From Gonapodya prolifera JEL478 (lineage: Eukaryota; Monoblepharomycota; Monoblepharidomycetes; Monoblepharidales; Gonapodyaceae): 64,000 nt of DNA. The stretch lies in the NCBI GenBank assembly GCA_001574975.1, contig KQ965806.1:141590-205589 (forward strand), read 5' to 3'. A program made the position numbers and the translations under genes. The notes under the pieces were generated by a model, which worked only from the letters and a program-made list of their open reading frames with translations, did no database searches and had not been told where the DNA came from. Below, piece after piece: positions 24,463 to 62,700 of this stretch (position 1 is the first letter of the stretch; each line of letters starts with the position of its first letter).

Positions 24463-26333
24463 ATGGCCACCCACGACTATGATAGCAACCCCGAGAGCGG
24501 TGTTTCGCCCAGTTTGAATGGCCTCCGTGTAAGGAACGTTGGGATTCTGGGCATGGAAATCTACTTCCCCAAGCAAGTGAGTGCCTTGAATGATGCTGTG
24601 TATCAGCAGTGGCATTATAAGTGTTTGCTTGAAGTACGTCGACCAGCAAGAGCTCGAGACGTTTGATGGTGTATCCGCGGGCAAATATACCATCGGTCTT
24701 GGACAACACCGGATGGCCTTTTGCGATGATAGAGAGGACATCAATTCCATGTCTCTGACAGGTCAGTGAATGTCCATCGTCGAGGTTCGACTTGGTTGGC
24801 TAAACCGAAAATGCATTGTTGCCTTGGTAACGAGCAGTCGTTCAAAACCTTCTATCAAACTACCAGATACCAATCACTTCTATCGGTCGCCTTGAGGTTG
24901 GAACGGAAACCATCATCGACAAGTCGAAGTCCGTCAAAACAGTACTGATGCAACTCTTTTCACCGCACAACAACGAAATTGAAGGCATTGACACCACAAA
25001 TGCCTGCTATGGCGGAACGAGTGCCCTTTTTAATGCCGTGAACTGGGTCCAAAGCGAAAACTGGGACGGTCGCTTAGCCATCGTCGTGGCTGGTGACATC
25101 GCCATTTATGCTCCAGGTAACGCGAGGCCGACGGGAGGAGCAGGCTGTGTCGCCATGCTTGTTGGGCCTGGCGCTCCTATTGTTCTTGAATCTGGTGAGT
25201 GTGATCCATTCCAGCACGCATCCTATGGTTGTTCACGATTTTCTTGCAAACCCAATAGGACATCGCTCCACCTTTATGGACCATACGTGGGACTTTTACA
25301 AGCCCGACTTCGGCTCAGAATACCCTTTTGTCGATGGGAAGCTTTCTGCGTCATGCTACCTTAACGCCATCGACCATTGCTATCGCAAATACATCGACCG
25401 TTTTGAGAAGAGTCATGGCGTGCGTTTTTTGCTGTATATGATATTCTACGTCTCATGCCTGACGCTTTTGTTTCGCTTGCTCATCGTAAAGATGGCACCG
25501 CACTCTGCAACATTGAGCGATTTCGACTACTTCTGTTTTCATTCGCCCTACACGAAGCTTGTTCAGAAGGCGTTTGCTCGGCTTGGCTTCATTGACTTTT
25601 TGCGATCGCATCAACCGGGCAAGTGGGCAAAGATTGGCCGGGTTGAAGACGTGAGTGAATGGATCATCTTTTTACCGGTCATCGCAATTTATGGAATGCA
25701 CTAACGCTCTGTATGCCAGCCCATGAAAGTCGATGACCCATCTTTTGACAAGGACGTCGAAAAGACCTTCGTAGCAATGACTGAGGACTTGTTCAAGTCA
25801 AAGGTCGACCCCAGTCTTCTCGCCGCGCGGGAGCTTGGCAACATGTACGCCGGGTCTCTCTACGGTGGTCTCGTTTCTCTTTTGAGTGAGGTCAAACCTG
25901 ATCAGCTGGTGAGTAGTTGCCTCGCGGCTGATGTCACTTCCGGTGTCGAATAACCTCTCACTCCGTGAGCCCAAAGGTTGGCAAACGTATAGGACTTTTC
26001 TCCTACGGATCCGGTCTCAGCTCGTCCATGTTCTCGCTCCGCGTGGTCGCGCCCCCAACCGACATCCACGGCGCGCTTTCTGACTTCCGCGCCCGCCTCT
26101 CCTCCCGGACACGAGTAGACCCCGCTGCGTTTGACGCCACCATGCAGCGGCGTGAGCGCACGCACGGTAAAAAGGGGTACGCTCCTGTGGGGAAGATAGA
26201 TGGGTTGTTTCCCGGTACGTTCTACCTTGAGAACGTGGATGAGAGGTTCAGGAGGTCGTATGGGAGGTGCGGCGTGGAGGCGAGTGGCGAGAACTTGGCA
26301 ACTTTGATGATTGCAGAAGGGGAAGGGAGCTAA
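24463..26333 (+). CDS. hydroxymethylglutaryl-CoA synthase
   Basis: Makes HMG-CoA from acetyl-CoA and acetoacetyl-CoA, the committed condensation of the mevalonate (sterol/isoprenoid) pathway in the cytosol. Seven exons (24463-24576, 24635-24761, 24838-25194, 25259-25419, 25492-25650, 25720-25908, 25977-26333) give 487 residues, a normal length. Landmarks: [24 protein letters not shown], then [19 protein letters not shown] with the general-base Glu, [17 protein letters not shown] with the catalytic Cys, [36 protein letters not shown] with the substrate-binding His, [18 protein letters not shown] and [14 protein letters not shown]. All catalytic residues are present and the gene looks intact. 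Confidence 0.96.
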
Positions 26334-29238: not shown

Positions 29239-29834
29239 GTGACTTCAGTGTCGGTTGAGTTAAGATATGCGTTGCTGACTGTCTCCAAGGCCCCCTGTTG
29301 TTCTGAATATTGGAACAGTAGCATAACTGCAAGTACTGAAGTAATGATGCATTAAAGGAATACATTTTGATGTTGCTAACCCTCCAACCCATAACGCGAT
29401 AGTCAATTATTTTACTCTCAGGCCGAAAAGTAGCATCACCATAGGCTCAGAAAACTATATCCGAAAGGGTTGACACTGTAGCACAGAGTTCATCCAGGGT
29501 GGCGGTGGGAAACTGTCACTGCCAGGACGCGACTTTGCGTGTGGGTGGGTCGCAGGATGAACACTTGCTCCATCTCAATCCTGTATGCAACAACAACCGG
29601 TCTTGCTCTATCCCTAAAATCCGAGTCATAGAAACCGAGTCGTAGTGGCACCAGTAAGTCAGGCAAGTCAGAACCCAGAGCTGGCGTAGAAACTGACATC
29701 TTGCCATGCCATAATATTTGCTCCAACACGCAGTGACCGCATGCCAGAATAAGACCTCGTCGTACATGATAAGAAGATGCTAAGAAACACTTGGATATTT
29801 CTAGTAAGGTGTCCAACAGTCATCTTCTCGACAC

Positions 29835-29935
29835 CCAAAAAGAGAAGAACGGGTGACGTCACCACGTGCAACGGAGTGATGGGATCGAGTGTCCACTCTG
29901 CTGCAAATATGGAGTCTATTGAGTGGCTACGGTGA
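29835..29935 (+). repeat. CRE-containing degenerate repeat, copy 1
   Basis: Contains the palindrome TGACGTCA in GGGTGACGTCACCACGTGC, then GAGTGTCCACTCT and GAGTGG. Similar to 30315-30412. Confidence 0.5.
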
Positions 29936-30314
29936 AATGAAGAGCACTAAGAGTAGAGACTGCAGCTAAATTGGCTATGAAAGAACTGCGGGTGTTTCAC
30001 TCGTGAGGTAGAGTTTACAAATCCAACCAAACGGTGACCGAAAATTTGTGCGTTGAACGTAACTTCACCTTCTCCATCAATCTCCATCCCATTAAATGCT
30101 AACTATTTTAATTTGCACCTCCAATTCTGGGCCCAACACACAAAACTACGCGCTACCCATCACCCCTTTCCCATCATCTTCTCAGACCCCATCGCCCCGA
30201 TGGAAGCCCGAATACAAACACCTTGCTGTACAAGATAAAAGATAAGAAAAAGCCTCTAAATTTGGATAATTCCGTTATGCTGCCGAACAAACAGCTCAAT
30301 GCCTTGTCACCCTA

Positions 30315-30412
30315 AAGAACGAAAAGGTGTGACGTCACTACATGCACGATGTGAAGAAATGAGAGTCCACTCTACGTCTACAAATATGACATGTATCGAG
30401 TGGACAAAGAAT
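30315..30412 (+). repeat. CRE-containing degenerate repeat, copy 2
   Basis: Contains TGACGTCA in GTGTGACGTCACTACATGC, then GAGAGTCCACTCT and CGAGTGG. Spacing matches copy 1 closely. Confidence 0.5.
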
Positions 30413-30923
30413 GCAGCTGCAGCAGGAGTGACATTTAAAAGAGCGCGCATGCGTGTCACGTCAGGCAGAATTTGTGCGACGTTGGGCAATATCCACTGAG
30501 GTGCGGAAAATGGAGATCCGTGATAGCGTAATGTATGTGGAGTGTGATCTCGCTCAAATGAAAATGTACCCTTGAATCTGAGGCACAACCGGAGTGGTGG
30601 CAAAGAGGAGTGTTGCGTGTCATTGCCATAAGTGCCTTCAGCACGGAGAGAAAGATCTCCTGCTCTGTAAATAAGATTATGTATGGTTGGAAAATTCAAA
30701 TCCCATCAGAGGAACTAAACATTAAGCGTGGCGTCGATTGAAAGGTCTTGTCACAGGGCATGCCAAGCTCGCGAATCGGACCAGCGCGAGACGACAAAAA
30801 AAAAAAAAAAGAAAGGGACAACGGCCCCATCTTCCACCTGCAATAGTAGGGTCAGCGTAGTAATGGACACTATGTCAGTGCTCTCGTTGGCGAATGGGTG
30901 TGTCAGGCGAAAATTCGAGTTCT

Positions 30924-31155
30924 AAAACCCCGACCACACGGCAACCAACAAAACAAAATGTCGACCACATCTTACACAAACCAAACAGATCTGTTGATCT
31001 CCTCACAGGAACGGGGCGCTGCCTCCGCCGGTGTGAATCGCGCGTCACGCCATTCTGCCTATACCGAAGAAAAGCTACGTTCACCACGTCACGCGTGAGG
31101 AAATGTCCGCAAGCTGGACTGGTGGCAAAATATGACAAAACGTTTGTGCCAGGTC
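30924..31155 (+). repeat. tandem non-coding duplication, unit 1
   Basis: Begins AAAACCCCGACC. Similar to 31266-31495 with a period of about 340 bp and roughly 70% identity by eye, including GTGAGGAAATGTCC against GTGAGGAAAAGTCC. Confidence 0.65.
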
Positions 31156-31265
31156 GTTGGTGCACGCGTCGATGAGATGAACATACCGCAGTGAATGGGG
31201 CGGCGTGGTAGTTCTGCCATAGTCTCGACTCCCGTCCTCACCGGACAAACATCGAGGGTACTTCC

Positions 31266-31495
31266 AAAACCCCGACCGCACGCCGACCAATAAACAGTTC
31301 GTGGTCACATCTTGCACGCCCGCACAGCTGCTTTTAATACCCGCGGAGGACCAGTCTTGCTTCCTGTCTGTGAGAATCATTGGTCACCAAGATATATTTC
31401 GAATTCGACAGGATGGTTCACCACGCGCCAAGTGAGGAAAAGTCCTCAAGCTGTTTTGGTGATAAAATGTGATGAAAACTATGTGGCAGGACCGG
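31266..31495 (+). repeat. tandem non-coding duplication, unit 2
   Basis: Second unit of the degenerate tandem pair, beginning AAAACCCCGACC and ending near GTGGCAGG. It lies just downstream (3') of the selenoprotein gene. Confidence 0.65.
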
Positions 31496-31500
31496 TCTCT

Positions 31501-31560
31501 GTTGTTGAGTCGAATCACGTTGAGGTGCTGAAAAATTTCACCCGTCCCGGTCACCTCGAC
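31501..31560 (-). promoter_or_regulatory. second, weaker SECIS-like hairpin candidate
   Basis: On the minus strand GTCGA (31560-31556) pairs with TCGAC. Inside lie TGAC and TGAT facing each other, and a loop beginning AAA sits about 12 nt after the first TGA. The helix between is poor (about 7 pairs) and the leading base is G rather than A. Alternative to the 31665-31802 candidate. Confidence 0.15.
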
Positions 31561-31664
31561 AAACCCATAGCCATATCATTCCCGTCGACGGAATTGATTT
31601 TAAAAATTTAATTTCTCCACCGCCAACCCCACACCACTACACACACTCCACGCCCATCCATACA

Positions 31665-31802
31665 CCCCCTCTAATCATCTTCTCAGACCACACACCGCGC
31701 CCCATCCTTCCTCGCTTCCTCAAAAGAAAAGAAAAGCCGGGACGCCTGCCATCACGTTGCAGGTGCTTTCGCGCGCGGGGTGGGTCGTCATATCGTAGGG
31801 GG
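31665..31802 (-). promoter_or_regulatory. candidate SECIS element in the 3' region of the selenoprotein H gene
   Basis: Starts 96 nt after the TAG on the coding strand. Proposed fold: helix I CCCCCT (31802-31797) with AGGGGG (31670-31665); core ATGA (31791-31788) facing TGAGA (31685-31681), which allows tandem G.A/A.G pairs. Helix II is 31786-31773 with 31700-31686: 13 Watson-Crick pairs, one bulge and one mismatch. An unpaired AAA (31769-31767) follows on the 5' side of the apical part. The ATGA/GA core, a helix II of about 14 bp and apical adenines are SECIS hallmarks. The apical arm (about 70 nt) is longer than usual and the region is GC-skewed, so chance pairing is possible. Confidence 0.35.
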
Positions 31803-31897
31803 AGGTCGGGCGTGTCGCGTATTGTCAGTCGTAAAGCCTCACGGGACACGAGGCGGTGGGAGAAGGGGACACGAGGAGGGAGGGGAAGGTAGCAGGG

Positions 31898-32984
31898 CTA
31901 GGCCAAGGCCCCCCCGATGGAAGAGACCAGTGTGGCAGGGTCGGGCCATTTGAGCTTTCGGGGTGGGCCGAGGGTCAGGCCAGACCAGACGGTTGTTTCT
32001 ATTGGGTGCGGTGGCGGTCGGTGTGTGGCGTGTGAGGTGGTTGTCAGGTGGGAGTGAGGGGTACGTGTGGGGATAATGAGGGACAGGAGCAGAAACGAAG
32101 CGGACGGTGAGACGATGGTGATTTGTTGAAAGAGCGTTTCGCCCCGCGCCCGCCCCCCCCCCACCCCCCTCCCCACCCCTCTCCTCTACCCCCCCGCCCC
32201 ATCAAACCCACCCTTGCCCTCCCCAACAACCGTGAAGTCGAACGCGCCCTTGCGTGGTTTGTCGGGGTTGACGGTGATGGATATCCCAGGGAATGAGGCT
32301 TCGAGGGTCTATTCGGTGCCACGTGCACAGACGAGGATCGAAGGTCGAAGATCGAGGGTGGAATGGGAGCGTGAGTGGGAACGAAGAGGCGAAGAGAGAG
32401 CAAGAAGAAGGATGCGGGAGACTCACCGGCCGAAGCTTCTTCAACTGGGACGCGTACTGAGATCAGCTCTTACTGTTATGTGTCCGCATCCCGATTTTGC
32501 AGCGAAGTGTGTCGAGTGTCGTGTATCGGTGAATTCGTGATTCCCGGTGACGAGAGAGTGGATCGACCATCGCGTCAATTTAATCGAATCCAGAATTACA
32601 CAAAAACAAAGGAAGGGGGAGTACGAACCAGATCTCGGCCCTGAGTTCAAACGCCTTGTCGCTGACCACACCCCCACCCTCGCCCTCTCCATCTCCGTCT
32701 GCGTCCTCGCTCTTGACCTTTTTCTCCTTCTTCACCACCTCCTTCTTAGCCGTTGTTGTTGCCGCCTTCCTGCCTTTCTTTGCTTTCGGCCCAACCGCGC
32801 TCCCCTCTGCCTTATCGTCGCCGCCGTCGTCCTTGACGTGCGCAATCGGATCGGCACCCCCCGCGTCCGCCTCGTCGTCTGCAGCCCGCTTCGTTCCCCT
32901 CCTCCGCGCCACGTCATCACCGTCCTTGCTCTCTTGCTTGATTGCCGCAGACGCCTTCGCCGCCGCCGAGCGTTTTGGCGGCAT
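31898..32984 (-). CDS. SELENOH: selenoprotein H with in-frame UGA (selenocysteine) in a CKSU motif
   Basis: Four exons: 32984-32629, 32472-32427, 32308-32212 and 31998-31898, giving 199 residues. The N-terminal about 100 residues are Lys/Ala/Glu-rich (KKEVVKKEKKVKSED), like the basic nuclear, DNA-binding tail of the family. The thioredoxin-like part runs FELRAEI, then Cys119-Lys-Ser-Sec122. Cys119 is made across the splice (TG plus T) and TGA is at 32465-32463. It continues SQYASQLKKLRP, LEASFPGISITVNPDKPRKG, AFDFTVVGEGK and VWSGLTLGPPRKLKWPDP. NPxKPRxGxF and GPPRKLKxP are hallmarks of selenoprotein H, and U-to-NP spacing is 25 residues, as I recall for human SELENOH. Redox role in the nucleus/nucleolus is from family knowledge. 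Only this splice keeps frame across intron 1. Without recoding the protein would stop at residue 121. Confidence 0.9.
32463..32465 (-). other. UGA codon read as selenocysteine
   Basis: Third exon-2 codon after the split Cys. It occupies the U position of C-x-S-U, the family's redox motif. Confidence 0.85.
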
Positions 32985-33395
32985 AGTTGCGGTTGTGGGA
33001 GGACGAGACACCGTGCACAGTTCTGGGGTGTGCCATAATCTTTGTGTGAGGGGCACAAGGGAATGAGCACGACGGCGGAGAGGAGAGGCGCAGCACTCAC
33101 GGCGATGACGGGCGGTGGCGATGGCGATGGCGATGGCGTGATGCGCGCGAGAGAGATGCTGTTTGTGGGCTCGAGGGAACGGGTGCGGCGGGGGAAGGCG
33201 ACAGCGACGGACGCGGTGGAGGACCGGAGCGGGAGCAGGACAAGAAAGCGCGAGGGCGATGAGCGAGCGTGCAATGAAAGAAGACGTAACGAAGTGGCGA
33301 GGGACGGTGCACCTCTGCGCTGCGACGGGGGGGATTTGAATGAAGCGCGCCGCGGACCGGGACGAGAGACTAAACACTCCACACGCCATCGCGAA
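32985..33395. promoter_or_regulatory. divergent promoter region between SELENOH and ARMC2
   Basis: 411 bp separates the two start codons. GC-rich, with no TATA box noticed. Both genes may share regulation, though this is only inferred from orientation. Confidence 0.4.
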
Positions 33396-36300
33396 ATGAA
33401 GCCGTACGGAAGGGGTGCAGACGCACTCGTCCTTGTCCCGCCCGCCGGTCTCGCATGGACATCACCACACCCACCACCGTCCATAGCCCAAAGGCCCCAA
33501 ACACCCGCACAAATCATCGCCGAGGCCAAGGCGTCGCTCAGGAACCCTACGAGACCCTTCACCCCACTTGTGAGCGGCGGGCATGCCTCTAGTAGCGGTC
33601 TCCTGCGTGTTGCAGTCGGAGGGCCTTTGGTCCCCGCTCGAGTACGTGGGGGTCAAAGAGCCTTGGTGCGCCCGGGGAGAGCGCAAGTGCCGCCGCCGAG
33701 GCTGGACCCGATTGATGTGTCGCGGTCCATGACGCCGGTCGGACGAGTACCTCGGGATGGCAAGTCAGATGTGGGGGAAGAGGACGAAGCGTGGGTGGAA
33801 ATCGGGCCTCTTAAGTGCGACGAGCGAAAACCGACGGAAAATCGCAATGCGGCTGGCGAAGATGTGGTGGGTGCGGTGCGGTTCGGGACTTTGAAGGTCT
33901 CGATGAGCTAACAGTCGCGGTGGCGATGGTAGGCCGCTTCCATGCGGAGCATCACGACCATCCTCGCGTCCATCCTCCATTCACACTCCGCTTCCCACTC
34001 ATCCTCCCCTTCCTCCCTCCCGGACCCCACCACAACCTCCCTAACCCACCTCTCCCACCACCTCGCCTCCCTTACACCTGCGCTCCTCCCCTCGGCTCTC
34101 CGCGCACTCGTCGACGCGTGCACACGTGCGCTTGAAACAAACACGCGGTCTGAGTGTGGGGGGGAGATGGCGCCGGTCGTGTGGTGCGCCCTAAATGTTC
34201 GTGTTGACACCCCTTGTTTGTTTGTTGGTGTGCAGAGTTAACCTTTGCGATGTCATGGGGATAAAACAGGCTTCCGCACCAACCGTCCCTATCGAGCTCC
34301 TCACCCTCGCCCACCATCTGGCGGGCATGGAGGTGGAGGAGGAGGAGGGAGAGACGGGGAGTGTGCAGAACGTGATGGCGGAATGCGTTCGTGAGTGGTT
34401 GTGTCGCGGCGGTTGTATTGGTGCGCCTCTGATCACACCCGGCGAACGGTCCAAACGGCGTGCTCCCCGCGTCCTACCGCGCGCGTCCACGAACGCACAC
34501 TCGCGTTTATAGCGGCACTGTGTTCTATTCTTCTTGCCACTCCTGCACCCACATCCCCTTCCCCATCGACCACCGCCACCACCACGCCAACCCCCCCGAC
34601 AGACCTCGCCACCCTCGCATCCGCAACTCTCGCCCTCCTCACCCAACGCCACACACGCGCGCGCACCGCACTCGCGAGATCGGGATACGTGTCGTCTTTG
34701 TTGAAGTTCCTGTGCTCCTCGTACTCCGAGCCTGAGACGTCAGGGGCCGCGACCGTGGGGTCCCACGGTGGTACGCGAGTAGCGGCGGCAGCGGTGGTGG
34801 TTCATGTTCTGGCCGCACTTCGGGACGTATCCGCCCACCGATCCACCCGCGCATCGGTGACGCGGGATCCGGAACTGTTGAATCGGGCGATGAGGTGCTG
34901 TCTTGGCTCTCCAACGGCCGCTACTGCTTCTGGTGCTGGCACCGCCCACGCCCAACGACTCGAAGACGCAGGCACAGCCACGCACCACGCCGCATCCCGC
35001 GTCATTTCCAAACTCTCCGTCTTCCGTAGCGGTCGCGCCGCGCTCCTTTACGACCTCCTCCACTCCTCCTCTTCTCCTTCCTCAACCCCAACCCTACCCC
35101 CACCGCCACTCATCACCCTCCTCACAACCTACATCTACCACCCGACAACACCACTCGGCACGATCTCCCGACTCGCGTTTGCCCTGTCGAATGTGATTCT
35201 GGATCCATCGGACGCAGCGGAGCTCGACAAAGGTGCAGGGTCGGAAGGTGGCGCTGGAAGTCGGTCGGATTCGGGACGGTCTAATGGGAGCGACGGGAGG
35301 GCCGATAGCGACGGCAGCCGCGCGGTGGTTGAGCAGACCAGGGCGGCACCGGGTGAGGTCAGGGAAGCGCTTGTGAAAGTGCTTTTAGAAGCTCGTGAAG
35401 GGATCGTGGCCGCCCTTGGACGCGCGAATGGCCTTCGCACCGCGGTTGCGGCCAGGGGTACAGAAGATTGTGGTGGTGGGGAAGTGGCACGTGAAGCTGG
35501 GGAGGCTACAAGGATGGTGCGTTGCAAAGGTCGTGTTCGTGTTGTTGAAGACGGCTCCAGTGATACTGATCTCTGTTGGTTTCCCATTCTCCCATTCTCA
35601 TGTGATTCAAATACCCCCTCGCCCACATTCAAGACCCTACGCCTGCTCGCAAACCTCGCCACTGACCGCCGTGCTGGGCTTGTTATGGCGCGAGGGGATT
35701 TGGTGGATGCTGTAGCGGTGGTGTTTGGTGAGACGTGTTTTTCTCTATGTGTACATTTGCGGATACCGAGTACCCCGTCCCACCCCGCTCGCACTCAAAG
35801 AACAAACGAACGCAACCCAAGACGAAGAACTTAAACTTTTGGCCGCATACGCCCTTGCCAATATTTCGTTCTACGCCGCTACTGCCGCTTCGGCTGGTCG
35901 TGGTGACAAGTCGGTATGGGGAGATGCAGAGGGTGGAATGAAGAAGATTCACATCGCTGAAGGTACGTGGTGCTTTGTTCTTGCATCTGTTCACACGTTC
36001 ATCACACCTACCACGATGAGATCAGCGATCCTCCCAACACTTTTCCACCCAAACCCCGAGCTCGTGTGCGAGTCACTGAGAATCCTGGCAAACCTCGCGC
36101 TTTTCGACTCGCTCCACGCCTCATCTTCCGCGACGGCCTCACCTTCCGGAACCACCACGACACCAGTCACCGTCCCCACAATACCAACCTGGCTCCACAC
36201 ATCGCACTGCATCTCCGCCGTCCTCATACACCTGCATCATCCGTCACCACCCGTCCGCGTCGCCGGCGCAGGTGCCCTTGTGAACGCTGTCGTGGCGCCG

Positions 36301-44985: not shown

Positions 44986-47900
44986 TCAGTGGAAAAAGTA
45001 GGGGCTGCCCATAACAGCACGAACGTCAAAGTCACCTCGTTTCGGGAGTTCGGGAAATAAGCGCTTGATGTCCACCCAAACTAGAACCGCTCTCGCTCCG
45101 ACCTTGTAGCTATTAAGATTTCGCTTTGACATCGCACGTCCCTTCTTGCCATACCGACTCTTCACTTCAATGATCGCGTCCAAATCGCCATCGTCAGCAA
45201 GCATCCTAGAGGCGGTGGCTACTTCACGCTCCGCTTCCAATTTGAGCACCTTCTCCCACATCACCTTCGATGTTTTAAGAGGCAAAGTCACGCGGACGGG
45301 GAGCTTGTTGTTTCCAAACCTCTCCAACAATTCGTCTCGCAGCTTTTCCATGATGCCCTTGCCATCCGGCCCGGTACTGTGTAGCCTCACGAACTCCTCC
45401 CTTAGAACTCTTCCAAGTTCGTCTACATCGGCCGCATGTGTCCAAAACGAGTCATGTACAGCCGCAAAGGTCAGTCCAAGTGCCTTCATGTGCAACGCCG
45501 TAAGCATCATGTGCGTCGCGTCCAGACTGTGTATGAAATTGGGGGGGAATGCGCTCGACTGCTTTTGATGGTTTGTTGAACCCTGTAATGTGGGATCTGC
45601 AATAACGAGTCTTTGGTAACGTGTCGTAATCGAGCGCATGGGAAATTTACGGTACGGTTGCACGACAGGGAGGCCAAGCGGGGTTGTCCAAACCAACATC
45701 GTGTTTCGTTGAATAGCCGGTGGCAATTCAAAACCTCGTTTCTTCACGCCGGACTTGGTCTTCTTCGTCTTGGCCTCTTTCGTGCTGGATTCCTTCACTG
45801 CTGAATCCGTAACAGAAGAGGAGACATCATCCTGTCCAGTGATATCGTGATCCAACAATCCGTCATGTAAATTGTCACGAGATGCCTCTTGTCCAACAAG
45901 CTTTCCTTCAAAAGCATCAGTTTTGGCATCGTTTTCGTCATCTTCGGTCATCCTCAAGTCTTCCAGCTCTGTCGTCTCCACCCCGTTCCCCTCAATCTTG
46001 CCACCCTTCACGATGCCCATCTCCTCCAAGACATCTGTGATGATCAATCCCCTTGGATCGATGTGTCTCGAGTCAGCACTGGAACACACAATACGAGCAA
46101 TGTCGTTTAACCATTGTTGAATCGCCCTTGCGCCGCTGAACATCTCCGCCACCGCGCGGTTTGTCAAGATAGCGAGATAACTTGCACACTGGAATATTTG
46201 TCTATCGTCCATGACGTGCTCTCCGGCAGTTCTTGATTCGACTAAACGGGCTGAAATCTGCTCCCGCGCCCCAATGAATGTCACTCCATAGCTTTGTGTC
46301 ATCACAGTTTGCTTCACAAGTGCCCGCGTCACTTTTCCCTGAGCCATCCGAGCGATTGCGTTCCCCGCGGAGGCGTCCTCGTCCACGATTCTTCCAACGA
46401 TCTTGGCAACACCGGTATAAACATCACCTGGTTTCTCCCGAGGCACCAAGTTCACCTCGAAAGCACCTTCTGAATCACCTCCCAAGGCAGCGTAATGCTG
46501 CATTCCATTGCAGGAGCCATCCATCTGTACTGGCAAACCGCTTTCATACTTTTCAGGACCTTCAGGGTGTTCCATCGCCCTTGCGACTTCATGACAAACC
46601 GCCAAGCACTGGTATGGCGAGTCCGCCTTTTTCCACCATCCATTCCCACCCAATGGATTTCTCGCAGAGTCTAGCACGTCGTTTATCCTTTCCTCTGTCC
46701 ACTTGACACGATCCTCGAACGACGCCTTATCGAACCCATATGTGTTTGCAAGGTGCACTTTGAGCCAAAACCAGCCACGATCTCCGAGTGGTTTACGCAG
46801 ATCGAACCGCAACAAACTCCGACTCAAATCGTTTCCGATATGGTTCAGATTCGGTGGGACGGGGTACGCACGCCCACGGAAGTCGATGTGGTGGGGGAAC
46901 CAGATCGGCCTCCCTGCCATTGCTGCCGCCAAGACCACTTTGAGTCCAGCGTCACATCGCCTTGAGTACCGCTCACGCTCATCCTTGAGCCATTTGGCCC
47001 TTGCGGCTGCAATTATCGCAAAATCCCTGATCTCCTCCCGCCCAACTTCGCCCTTGGCCCGACGTTCCTTCCATGCCTTCATACCATTGGAAAGTGCAGG
47101 TGGCGGGATGCGTCGCTCCATGGCAGCCGGTGGCATATCCCCCAAGGAGACTCCGGAATTCCACAGCTCAATCACGGTAGGGAGTACGACGTCGTTGACG
47201 CGCCACGGGATCGAACCCAGNNNNNNNNNNNNNNNNNNNNNNNNNNNNNNNNNNNNNNNNNNNNNNNNNNNNNNNNNNNNNNNNNNNNNNNNNNNNNNNN
47301 NNNNNNNNNNNNNNNNNNNNNNNNNNNNNNNNNNNNNNNNNNNNNNNNNNNNNNNNNNNNNNNNNNNNTTGACGCGCCACGGGATCGAACCCAGATACGA
47401 CAGGGCGGAGAAAAGGTGCGTCAGGTGTTGCCGTGAGTCGGCGGCCCGAAGGTACGCTAGCTGAGACGGAGCCGTTGGAGTAAAGTGCATGATTCGAGCT
47501 GGGCGAGTGAAAGGGAGGTGTTGATTGGAAGGAAGAGGAGGGCGAGGTGGAGTCAAAAATTTGACGTCGTCGGGTATCACTACGTGTGGCGGGATAATAC
47601 TCACCACCTCTACCGTAATACGGTCCCGACCTCTCGCCTACACCCGCCCAGTTCCTGGGCTGGCAAATCATTGGCAAGTAACTCGCTTCCATCCCAGCCA
47701 AGGAAGCATTGGCCCATTCCCTGACCTCTTCCCTGGCTTCCACAACGCCAATAAGCCGGCTCTGAATGAGAGAGTCGCCACGGTTGTCGAGAACCTTCTT
47801 ATAGGAAAATGCAAATGGTTGGATAGTGGAGTCTTTTGATGGGAGTCGTGCAGTGGCAATGAGCGCGTCCAGAAGGAACGCACCGACGCGGGCAGCGAGT

Positions 47901-52949: not shown

Positions 52950-53517
52950 GTTGGTGGAAGAGGTTGGGTATGGAGTGTGTGGGGTTGATGAGCATTATAT
53001 ACATTCACGTTTGAATTTGAAAGCAAAATCTTTCCAATATAAGTACAACATCTTAGATATAGTACAGCTACGGCCATATGCGCGGAAAAGTGCCGCTTCC
53101 CGTCTGATCAGCGCAGCGAAGCCCGCGACAGCCCAGTCAGTACTAGGGTGAGAGATCAGCTGGGAATACTGGGTGCTGTAGTTTTGCACTTTTGAGAGTT
53201 GCAACGTCAGGGGATATGAAGTGTGCGATTGAGAGGTGAGTTTTACCGCGTCGCTTTTTTGCACGCAGATTATGCAGAAGCGCACTATCTATTATAGCTT
53301 TTCATTCATATCATAAATACTACGTGCACCCGACAGGACGAGAAATGCGTAGTGGTGCTGCGGTCCATCGAACGCAAGGGGAGCCGACGAAATCACCAAC
53401 CAATCTCTGCTCATTCGCGATCCCAATACGGACCAATCGCCCCAATCCACCACAATCATCCCTCAATCAGTCGGAATACCGCGTGCTCAACCCCCGCTGA
53501 CTGCCGGAAGTGTCCAC
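52950..53517. other. intergenic region
   Basis: No exon with family support; ORFs on both strands are unconvincing. Confidence 0.4.
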
Positions 53518-56998: not shown

Positions 56999-57130
56999 AC
57001 GTCGAGCATCTTCGGTTCTTTTTTGTAGCGCTTCAAAATCATGTAATGTAAATGCAAATGCCCATGCGGTTGTCAGTGGTCCAACAGAAGTCCTACAACA
57101 CTTTGGTCTCCACCACCTCACATTCCATTG

Positions 57131-58771
57131 ATGGGTCTCACATCCTTCCTCGAAAACCCCCGCCGTCGAAAACTCTACCTCCGCATCGCACTCCTCCTCA
57201 CAATCCTCGGCGGTATCACCTACGCCGGGCTGTACGGACTCCCTATCGATGGCTGGCACGGCGCGCCAGATGGAGGGGACCGCCAGTTCGAGGGCAACAG
57301 GGGGAGGGCGAAACTGACAGAGCAGGTGGGAAATTTGGAGGACGCGCTGAGACGGCAGGCTCTGGACGCGGCAAGGGAGGGTGGTGGGGAGGGGAGGAAA
57401 GCCATTGCCGTCCCCGACGTGAAGCTGGAGCAGGACGACCCTCCGCCAGCCCCGCCTCCGAGTCTGAGCAATCAGCAAGGGCAGGGGAAGAAGTCTTCCG
57501 ACCAGTTCGTGGGCATCCCCCCGAGCAAGGTCGAGGTGCAACCCGACCCGTCGCTCCCTTCCCCCAACGTCGAAGAGCTCGCCTGCTCCTTCGACCCCAC
57601 CACACGCGACCTGAAGAAGTATCCAATCACGCTATGCGACGAGCCTTACCTTCGCCACGACAAGGACCAGCCCAAGGGGACCAACTGTCCCGTTCCTTAC
57701 CAGTGGACGTCTCGGTGTGAGGAGGCCGACTTGAGGATCTTTGAGGTGCTTCATGGCGGGATACAGAGCGTTGTTCCGAAGGCGGAACGCAAATGCGCAC
57801 ACCAGAAGTACGGTTATTTGAGTATGGAAAGTGCCGCTTATTACGGGCAGGTCATGAACGCCAAGGACTATGTCGACGTGGTCTCGACGTACCGCCTGGA
57901 CTCGGACGTGCCCATGACGTACTGGGGCGGGTTCATGGACATCCAGCGCTTCTCCCCGGTACCGCTCCACAAACGACGTACGGACGCCATCGCGGCAACT
58001 TTTGTGTCCAATTGTGGCGCGTTGAATGACAGGAATAAGTGGATGGAGGGCGTGTCGCAGGTGGTTCCTACACATCATTATGGGACATGTTTCCATAACC
58101 AGGCCATTCCGGAGAGGATTAAGAGTAAGACTAAGGACCATCCGTGGGATTTGAAGTATGCGGTGTTGGAGTGAGTTTTCGCTCGCGGTGTGCTTTCTTG
58201 AGAGTTTCCGGCGTTGTCTGACTGCGTACGCGTACGTTCATCCTCGACGTTCACACTATTCACCAGAGAGTACCTGTTCAACCTCTGCTTCGAGAACTCG
58301 GACTCTCCCTACTACGTCACCGAGAAACTCTACCAAGCGTACGTGGCCGGCGTCGTACCCGTTTACCTGGGCCCATCCAACTGGCAACTACACGTGCCCA
58401 ACCTAACGTCGCTGATCATGGCGAGCGACTTCGACTCCCCGGAGCAGCTCGGGCACTACCTCAAGTACCTCTCCGAGAATAGCAAGGAGTACGAGCGGTA
58501 CCTCGAGTGGAAGAAGTACCCCATGGTCCGGCCCGCGTGGAAGGAGATTGAACGGATTGCGGCCAAGGATGTCCATTGTAGGTTCGCGATGCATGTTGCG
58601 GGCAAGCCGTACAAGTGGAGGAATAAGGACTTTGGTGCGCCGGAGACGATGGACGGGGATGTAGGGATCAGTGTCGTGGAGTGGAAGAAGAAGTGGGCGG
58701 AGGAGAGGGAGAGACTGGATAAGGAGGCGGCGAAAGAGGGTGGCAAGGACGCGACGGGAGATGAGCGATAG
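57131..58771 (+). CDS. GT10 fucosyltransferase, Golgi type II membrane protein
   Basis: Exons 57131-58170 and 58267-58771 give 515 residues. A short cytosolic tail (MGLTSFLENPRRRKLYLR) precedes a single membrane anchor, IALLLTILGGITYAGLYGL, followed by a disordered stem. The catalytic part includes YGYLSMESAAYYGQ, STYRLDSDVPMTYWGGF, AIAATFVSNCGALNDRNKWM and the GT10 C-terminal signature EYLFNLCFENSDSPYYVTEK, LYQAYVAGVVPVYLGPSNWQ (GDP-fucose binding). The reaction would be transfer of fucose from GDP-fucose to a glycan, probably alpha-1,3-linked. It sits just behind the ADP-ribosylglycohydrolase relic, with no functional link. Confidence 0.9.
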
Positions 58772-59793: not shown

Positions 59794-62700
59794 ATGGACG
59801 TTGGCGACGGCGACGAGTGGAAGAAAAAGACGAAGAAGGACAAGAAGAGCAAGAAGGGCGAGGACGGCGATGCCCCGAGGAAGAAGCGGGTTCGCATTGC
59901 GAAGGGTGAGGAGTCTGTCGACGCAATGGTGTGATTGATCAACGGGCGTAATCACCGATCTTTGCTCAAAGCCTGTGACCTCTGTGTGGTCAAGAAGCTC
60001 AAGTGTGATGGCAGCGAGCCATGCTTCAGATGTAAAACGGTGAGTGGGTCTCTGAGGACATTTGATCTTCGTGAACGATCACTACGCCTCCACGAGGATG
60101 GAGTGGTTTTGACAGCATGAGTGCGACTGCTGTCTCTACTGAATGGCTCAGTCGGTCGGTGTCGGCGGGATCATCAGGATGTTCCTCGTCCTAATGGCAC
60201 GTACGAGCAGCGGAGGCCCAGAGGCCGGAGTTACGTGACGCGAACGCAGAGTCCGAGGCCTAAGCGGAGTTGACCGAGGCTGTCCGCTAGAGGCGAATGA
60301 TCCGTTGGCGCTGTCTTCGTATTGACGACCCGCTCCTGTATATACGTCTTCTTCCTTCCTTCGCTCACCCCGTTTCACTCCCCAAAACTCTACATACCAC
60401 CAGACATCCCAAAGCTGTACCTACCTCCGCCAACATAAAGTCCCCGTCCGCCGCAAGAAGCACTACTACGACGACGGCGATCTTCCCCTCGGGTTCACTC
60501 CGCGCCCGCAGCCCATCGTGCCCAACGGCCGATCTAATGCCGCCATGGACCCGTACCCGGACCAGCTCGGTCTGAACGTGCAGAGGCAGGGAAAGCCACC
60601 AGGATCAGGACAACCGAAAAAGCAGAAGCGTCCATCCGCCGCTGGTTCGCGCAGACCGTGGGAGGAGGAGAGCGACGAGGAGGAGTCATCCTCAGACGAC
60701 GAATCGGCGGAGGAGTATTCGGAGGATGAAGATTCGGGCGAGGACAACGATGAATCCACCACCGAAGTCAATGGCGGGGCGCCACTCAAACGCAAACGCA
60801 CCAACTCCGCACCGCTTCCCCCTCTCATGAGCGCCGGAATCAACGGCGCGCTGAACGGCTCTGACGCACTGCAACTCGCGCCACGGTCGCGACATTCCAG
60901 TATCGTGTACGGTAACCACCAGGCACCCCCCGCCATGGGCATGGGCATGCCGCGACCGAAACCTTCGGGGACGGTCAGCATTTCGGAGATTCTGCCCGAA
61001 CAAGGAGACGAGTTTCCGGGTGCGAATGGGTTTATGAGCCTGGTGTCCAGGCCTGGACCTCGCCGGTGGTCTTCGTAAGTTGATTGCAAATGGTACCGTG
61101 GTGTTTTCACCCGTCTCATGCGAAATTGGTCCCAAAATTCTTTCCTCGTCTCGTTAGCCTCTCGACGACACAACTGAATGCGATCCAAATGAGCGTACCA
61201 GATGACATCCCCTTGTTCGCGGATCTTCCTCCCTTACCGACTCAGGAGATTCAGAACCTGCTTGTTGGTCTCTAGTGAGTGGCCACTGCTCAAGAAGATG
61301 TGCTATTCTTTTCTCATACGGTTTCTGTTGTGTAGTTTCGAAAAAGTGTGGCCGTGGCTTCCCTGTATTGACAAAACGAGGTTTCTTCGAGACTTCGCAT
61401 CCTATCCACCCATCTTAACTTACTCCATTTACGGTAAGCGGACGCCTTCCTCAGAAATCGCCAATATTTACTTCACGATGCCACCCCGTACTCAGCCTGC
61501 GCCGCCCGCTACTGCGAGGACCCCAGCATCGACAGCCGCCAGCACCCCACCTCCACGCCCAACCTCATGCTGATCCGCTGCGCCCGCCTCCTCCCGACCG
61601 TGTTCGACGTCCGCCGCCCCACCGTGCACCACGTCCAGGCCATCCTCAACATGTGCGTCCAGTCAAACACCCGCCCCGAGTTCGAGCAAGGAAGAATGTG
61701 GGTCGGGATGGCCATGGTGGTTGCGAGGATTGTCGGGTTGTGTACGGAGGGCGGCGTGGACGGAGCAGGAGGAACGGCGGCGGAGTCGTGGAATAGGGGG
61801 ATTTCGACGATCACGGAGGGTGAGGATAAGGAGAGGAAAATGGACGAGATGAGGAGGACGTGGTATTGCTGCCTTGCCTACGATAGGTGGGTCTTTGTCT
61901 GGTCGCCACCTTCCCCTGAGGGCAGGTCGTTGACGCTTCTTTGAAACAGGTTCGCCGGAATGTCCGAGCCCCGAACGTGGTCCGCCGCTCTCGACGAAGG
62001 CCGCGACGTCCGAATACCCCCTCCTTGGTCAATTCACGACGGACCTCCGAGCCAAATCGAGCTCACAGGAGGTCAACCCAAGTCGGACGCTCTCATGTCC
62101 CTCTACTCCTTGTACGCCCGCGTCGTCGAGTTCCGCCAACACTGCAGCCGCAAGGGTGTCGATCCGTGCGATTTGGCCACCCAGAGCGGCAAGAGGATGT
62201 ACTCCAAGCTGAGATATCTGGACGGAATCGTCGTGGGGTGGTACAGGAGCCTGCCAGATAGTGTGAGGAGTTTGAACATCAAGGACGGGGAGCAAGGCAG
62301 GAAAACGTTCCTTGAAAGTGCATATATGCTAATGATTTTCTACGCGATGCGAGGTGGGGTCTATGATTGAGGCATACTTTATCCAACAACGTTCATCATT
62401 GATTTCTCCGAACGTCCTTAGTGATTCTGAACGGACCCACGACGGTGCTCTCCACCGAAGAACTCGTGGCATCTTCACCGGCAACCCTGCACGCATGGAT
62501 GTCGACCCCCTGCTTCCTCATTTCCACGACATCGGCAGGCAACATTTCTCGTGTTCTGGAGTCAGTACTCGACCTTGAAGGCGAGCGTGGAATGGATTTC
62601 GCCAGCCCCCTTCTGTGGGTGTGCATCTGGAAATCTGCCATTATTCGGGCGGTTTCTGTCAGGGCCGTCAGGGTGTACTCTGGGGTTTCTGTGAACGGGC

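Follow-up and report, generated by a model that had tools for sequence, protein, structure and literature searches.

The 64,000-nt window, meaning the whole stretch of DNA analysed here, contains a fungal gene for selenoprotein H (SELENOH), in which an in-frame UGA is most likely decoded as selenocysteine (Sec). The gene occupies the minus strand between positions 32984 and 31898 and consists of four exons, which join into 600 nt, or 199 codons followed by TAG. Within this coding sequence (CDS), the only internal stop is the TGA at codon 122 (32465-32463, minus strand), and the reading frame is otherwise unbroken through the four exons. In window coordinates, the parts of the gene are:

32629-32984, minus strand: exon 1, with the ATG at 32984-32982 and a 3' end reading ...GAG ATC TG
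32473-32628, minus strand: intron 1, 156 nt, with donor GTTCGT and acceptor TAACAG
32427-32472, minus strand: exon 2, 46 nt, beginning with the single T that completes the split codon, followed by AAG AGC TGA TCT CAG TAC ..., which reads KSU SQYASQLKKLRP
32463-32465, minus strand: the in-frame TGA, codon 122, at the Sec position of C-K-S-U
32212-32308, minus strand: exon 3, encoding TLEASFPGISITVNPDKPRKGAFDFTVVGEGK
31898-31998, minus strand: exon 4, encoding ETTVWSGLTLGPPRKLKWPDPATLVSSIGGALA, with the TAG (31900-31898) at its end

At the junction of exons 1 and 2, TG (32629) joins T (32472), generating C119-K-S-TGA122. This is the arrangement of the original prediction, in which a TG-to-T join supplies the cysteine and TGA takes the place of Sec in CKSU, and the bases it named for the junction, 32628 and 32473, are the end bases of intron 1. 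The four exons remain in phase until the TAG, as had been proposed. The predicted 25-residue spacing between U and NP is recovered, with U122 and N148 leaving 25 residues between them, and the two motifs that it listed, NPDKPRKGAF and GPPRKLKWP, are both present in the 199-residue model. Exon 1 encodes a charged N-terminal tail (24 K+R and 22 D+E in residues 1-108), with the Rdx domain positioned C-terminal to it. In a codon-usage comparison based on a small training set, the whole gene scores 32.2 in its own frame versus -42.9 and -58.0 in the other two; the domain, taken separately, scores below zero even in its own frame (-7.0 versus -25.7 and -20.8).

The full protein matches TIGR02174 (CXXU_selWTH) with 40.1 bits (cut-off 34.2) and Rdx with 23.5 bits (cut-off 22.6), and with both profiles above their cut-offs the proposed SELENOH identity is upheld. 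An alignment to SELENOH homologues, suggested as a check on the original prediction, was run against a single sequence, that of human SELENOH. It gives 38% identity over 79 columns and a score of 163, compared with at most 46 for shuffled sequences (n = 500). The alignment is gap-free from CxxU to NPDKPRKGAF, with one gap before GPPRKLKWP, and the in-frame UGA falls in the Sec column of this single homologue. As in SELENOH, a member of the Rdx family and of TIGR02174, the CxxU (C119-K-S-TGA122) lies at the N-terminal end of the domain. The charged N-terminal tail and the SELENOH motifs NPxKPRxGxF and GPPRKLKxP are also shared with the human protein. Differences from that protein include a longer N-terminal tail, CKSU in place of CTSU, and W in GPPRKLKWP where the human sequence has F. 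Protein searches of PDB sequences, prokaryote genomes, viral contigs and plasmids, together with pattern searches of genome and viral contigs, returned no relative, so the alignment rests on the one homologue and the two profiles. Two pattern matches in genome contigs were rejected as chance matches.

Other genes on the contig point to a fungus. A Zn2Cys6 cluster is found on the SELENOH contig (Zn_clus, 28.8 bits; cut-off 21), followed downstream on the same strand by a Fungal_trans stretch scoring 21.4 bits, just below its cut-off of 23 (both within 59935-62367, plus strand); the two are probably parts of one intron-split transcription factor gene. An open reading frame (ORF) for a mitochondrial (T7-type) RNA polymerase is located at 44989-47637 on the minus strand, with a 148-N assembly gap (47221-47368) in its N-terminal part. 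It is closer to the yeast enzyme than to the human one, with 437.9 bits against Rpo41 and 388.7 bits against POLRMT, both matched as PDB entries. The fungal host of the original prediction is thus supported by the Zn2Cys6 and Fungal_trans stretches and the yeast-like polymerase. One of the profile scans took 84 of the 110 chosen window ORFs, the others mostly falling in other scans or being omitted. Scanned with Rfam at gathering scores, the whole window yields one match, a 5S rRNA gene (53066-53184, plus strand, 93.1 bits), and ARAGORN reports no tRNA in it.

The region downstream of the CDS was searched for a Sec insertion signal (SECIS). With Rfam, the stretches 29500-33200 and 31600-31897 give no SECIS match even at a limit of E = 10. 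In PMC2375036, the canonical rules place AA 10-13 nt from the quartet and 15-39 nt from AA to GA, and branched structures are filtered out. With SECISearch-style rules and a helix of at least 7 bp, no match occurs within 3 kb downstream of SELENOH; the primary pattern occurs at six places in the first 1 kb, none with such a helix, and 38 candidates with a helix of at least 7 bp exist in the whole window on both strands. A consensus SECIS is therefore not seen in the 3'UTR. Diverged direct repeats also lie downstream of the gene, at 29827-31490: a 75-nt pair 337 apart (75% alike), a 33-nt pair 342 apart (85%) and a 44-nt pair 476 apart (73%).

The 3'UTR contains a candidate non-canonical SECIS-like element. 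Its pairing was first seen by eye, as AUGAC-GACCCACCCCGCGC with GCGCGGUGUGUGGUC-UGAG, and its parts are:

31665-31802, minus strand: the whole candidate, starting after 95 nt of 3'UTR
31802-31797 with 31670-31665, minus strand: lower stem, 6 bp
31790-31787 (UGAC) with 31685-31682 (UGAG), minus strand: quartet
31786-31773 with 31700-31686, minus strand: helix II, 13 bp, with one bulge and one mismatch
31772-31742, minus strand: 5'-side insert, 31 nt, holding GCGAAAGC and a 5-bp hairpin
31741-31701, minus strand: long apical stem

The scan applied to this pairing was shaped after sight of it: a bulge-free version missed the candidate, and one-base bulges were then allowed. In the bulge-allowing scan, the candidate is the best AUGA/GA-core helix on both strands of the window, and none of 500 shuffles reaches its score. 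It ranks first in all six settings with spans of up to 150 nt (window, both strands). At 250-nt spans it is second in both settings, outscored by an inverted repeat that lies outside the gene (34804-34559). This long repeat (window 34559-34804, minus strand) lies upstream of SELENOH, spans 21 bp by the scan and also carries a TGA/GA core. In dinucleotide shuffles of the 298-nt UTR, the candidate score is reached in 3 of 10,000. Ten decoy cores, each a trinucleotide paired with a dinucleotide, gave two matches in the window at or above the candidate score, both GAT/AG, and seven at 28 or more; because decoy cores match, such helices do arise by chance, though not in a set place.

In the predicted fold of the spliced mRNA, the pairs of helix II have probabilities of at least 0.92 and those of the lower stem at least 0.90. 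The folding energy of the candidate is unexceptional: in two comparisons with 200 shuffles each, 14 and 22 folded at least as well. Among 26 segments of 120 nt along the mRNA, the one at 750-870 has the lowest z-score (-2.66), those at 690-810 and 720-840 having -0.11 and -0.79. Published descriptions of the type II SECIS comprise a lower stem, an AUGA/GA quartet, a helix, 5'-side adenines and an apical stem, with lengths modelled on Asgard archaea. The candidate resembles the eukaryotic type II form in its lower stem, AUGA/GA quartet, 13-bp helix, 5'-side adenines above the helix and apical stem. It departs from it in two canonical spacings, the AA being separated from the quartet by 18 nt (10-13 nt by the rules) and the distance from AA to GA being 83 nt, and in a branched apical part, where a 31-nt branched insert replaces the 4-12 nt bulge of the Asgard model. 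It has no Rfam match.

Tentatively, and with somewhat less than even confidence, the element may represent a fungal form of SECIS that combines a standard kink-turn core with displaced adenines and a branched insert, so that the signal would be core-only or its apical part differently read. A 2019 paper on fungal selenoproteins reportedly states that most of them carry no consensus SECIS and have RNA structures of other kinds; if so, a 3'UTR with a SECIS-like fold in place of the consensus element fits that statement. Nearly as plausible as not is a variant of the Sec explanation, compatible with it, in which Sec is inserted through another or further-downstream element and the fold at 31802-31665 is a product of chance. 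The unusual apical part, the ordinary folding energy, the scan shaped after sight and the two decoy matches of equal strength speak for this variant, which is opposed by the rarity of the score among UTR shuffles and by the position of the fold, as the best core-plus-helix on both strands at spans of up to 150 nt, within the 3'UTR of the very gene that carries the TGA. A Sec-redefinition stem directly after the UGA is not convincing, with z-scores of -1.6 for the 100 nt from the TGA and -1.8 for -30 to +70.

Whether the mRNA carries the TGA depends on the splice at intron 1. The 558 nt that run from exon 1 through exon 2 contain a single GTNNGT donor, at 32628 (GTTCGT), and its sole in-frame use with a CAG or TAG acceptor leads to CKS-TGA. 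This donor matches the rest of the introns assigned in the window: all seven, located by homology in two further genes, have the GTNNGT form. Six of them belong to an HMG-CoA synthase gene, where they were chosen by hand to continue the matched protein, and one, placed by eye, to a GT10 fucosyltransferase. The HMG-CoA synthase gene (24463-26333, plus strand) has seven exons, separated by six short introns of 58-76 nt. Its product is 487 residues long, of which 22-466 align in one stretch, with 543 bits, to 2p8u, the solved human cytoplasmic enzyme. The fucosyltransferase lies at 57047-58771 on the plus strand, with its intron at about 58171. The claim that only one splice keeps the SELENOH frame was too strong because 20 other GT/GC-AG splices (five donors by four acceptors) keep the frame and avoid the TGA, as listed from GT or GC donors at 32700-32427 and AG acceptors at a distance of at least 40. 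What stands is that none of the 20 has a GTNNGT donor or keeps the cysteine of the motif. A message spliced in one of these ways, for example from donor 32624 to acceptor 32457 (...EIWFYASQL...), would yield an Rdx-fold protein stripped of its redox pair. The number of such splices lends this some room, but the five donors lack the form shared by the homology-placed introns, the CxxU/CxxC motif would be lost, and the one TGA-free version of the 20 that was scored falls below both family cut-offs. For Rdx, the domain alone gives 19.7 bits in this version and 26.2 bits with the TGA (cut-off 22.6); for TIGR02174, it gives 32.1 bits versus 40.1 bits for the full TGA-bearing protein (cut-off 34.2), the two inputs being of unequal length. 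TGA skipping is accordingly very improbable.

If the splice at 32628 is used, the UGA could still be a genuine stop, in a cysteine-form gene with an assembly base error at codon 122 or with a recent nonsense mutation that marks a dying gene. TGA is one base away from TGT and TGC, a canonical SECIS was not found, and most fungi are reported to be without Sec. Yet there are 60 single-base routes to a nonsense codon in the SELENOH CDS, 28 of them in codons 111-199, and just one produces TGA at codon 122; the four exons are otherwise intact, the 3'UTR holds the SECIS-like core that so few shuffles match, and SELENOH selenoproteins have been reported in fungi. This reading is improbable, if less so than TGA skipping. 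The least credible reading, with next to no weight, is that UGA encodes tryptophan or another standard amino acid throughout the genome. It would be suggested by the single TGA that lies in frame within a conserved gene, but in the mitochondrial RNA polymerase ORF, the one other gene checked, UGA is an ordinary stop: the ORF ends in TGA and contains 16 TGG and no TGA in 883 codons. The assembled HMG-CoA synthase likewise has no internal stop.

Decoding of the UGA as Sec therefore remains the preferred reading. Under this reading, the gene is nuclear and comes from a fungus that probably branched early; it would encode a selenoprotein H with a thioredoxin fold, a charged tail at the N terminus and a redox function based on its C-x-x-U active site. 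Translation of the UGA at codon 122 as Sec would proceed through tRNA-Sec and eEFSec, with a 3'UTR structure as the guiding signal. The kink-turn-type AUGA/UGA quartet of the predicted fold, with the 13-bp helix and the 6-bp stem, probably plays the SECIS role despite the non-canonical apical part.

Sec-using fungi with SELENOH are already published. Nine fungal species were reported to use Sec in 2019, seven of them Harpellales (Mariotti et al. 2019, as conveyed in citing papers). In these sources, Bifiguratus adelaidae and Gonapodya prolifera are also named as Sec-using fungi, SELENOH is common to Harpellales, and RNA-seq indicates selenoprotein expression in Zancudomyces; the present gene, a SELENOH with Sec in a fungus, resembles the fungal selenoproteins described there. 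The rarity stressed in the original prediction holds, but the gene is less remarkable than claimed because nine species and the SELENOH of Harpellales had already been reported. The locus is itself already known if its source is among the nine reported species, for example Gonapodya prolifera; no published description of it was found in the literature searched, a body that excluded the 2019 paper itself. The GC content of the window is 54.2%, compared with published values of 35.56% for Zancudomyces culisetae and 51.75% for Gonapodya prolifera. On GC and introns, a tentative candidate for the source is Gonapodya prolifera or a relative of it not yet reported.

The use of Sec is rare in fungi, and two 2021 papers state that fungi encode no Sec, one of them citing the 2019 report and disputing it. 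A fungal SELENOH with introns, at 54% GC, widens the record beyond the composition of Zancudomyces, the Harpellales genome used for comparison. The part of the locus worth an experiment is the SECIS-like element, which offers a concrete RNA for testing how UGA is recoded in fungi without a consensus signal. Should the element be such a fungal SECIS, this lineage would recode UGA with a core-only signal or with an apical signal that is differently read.
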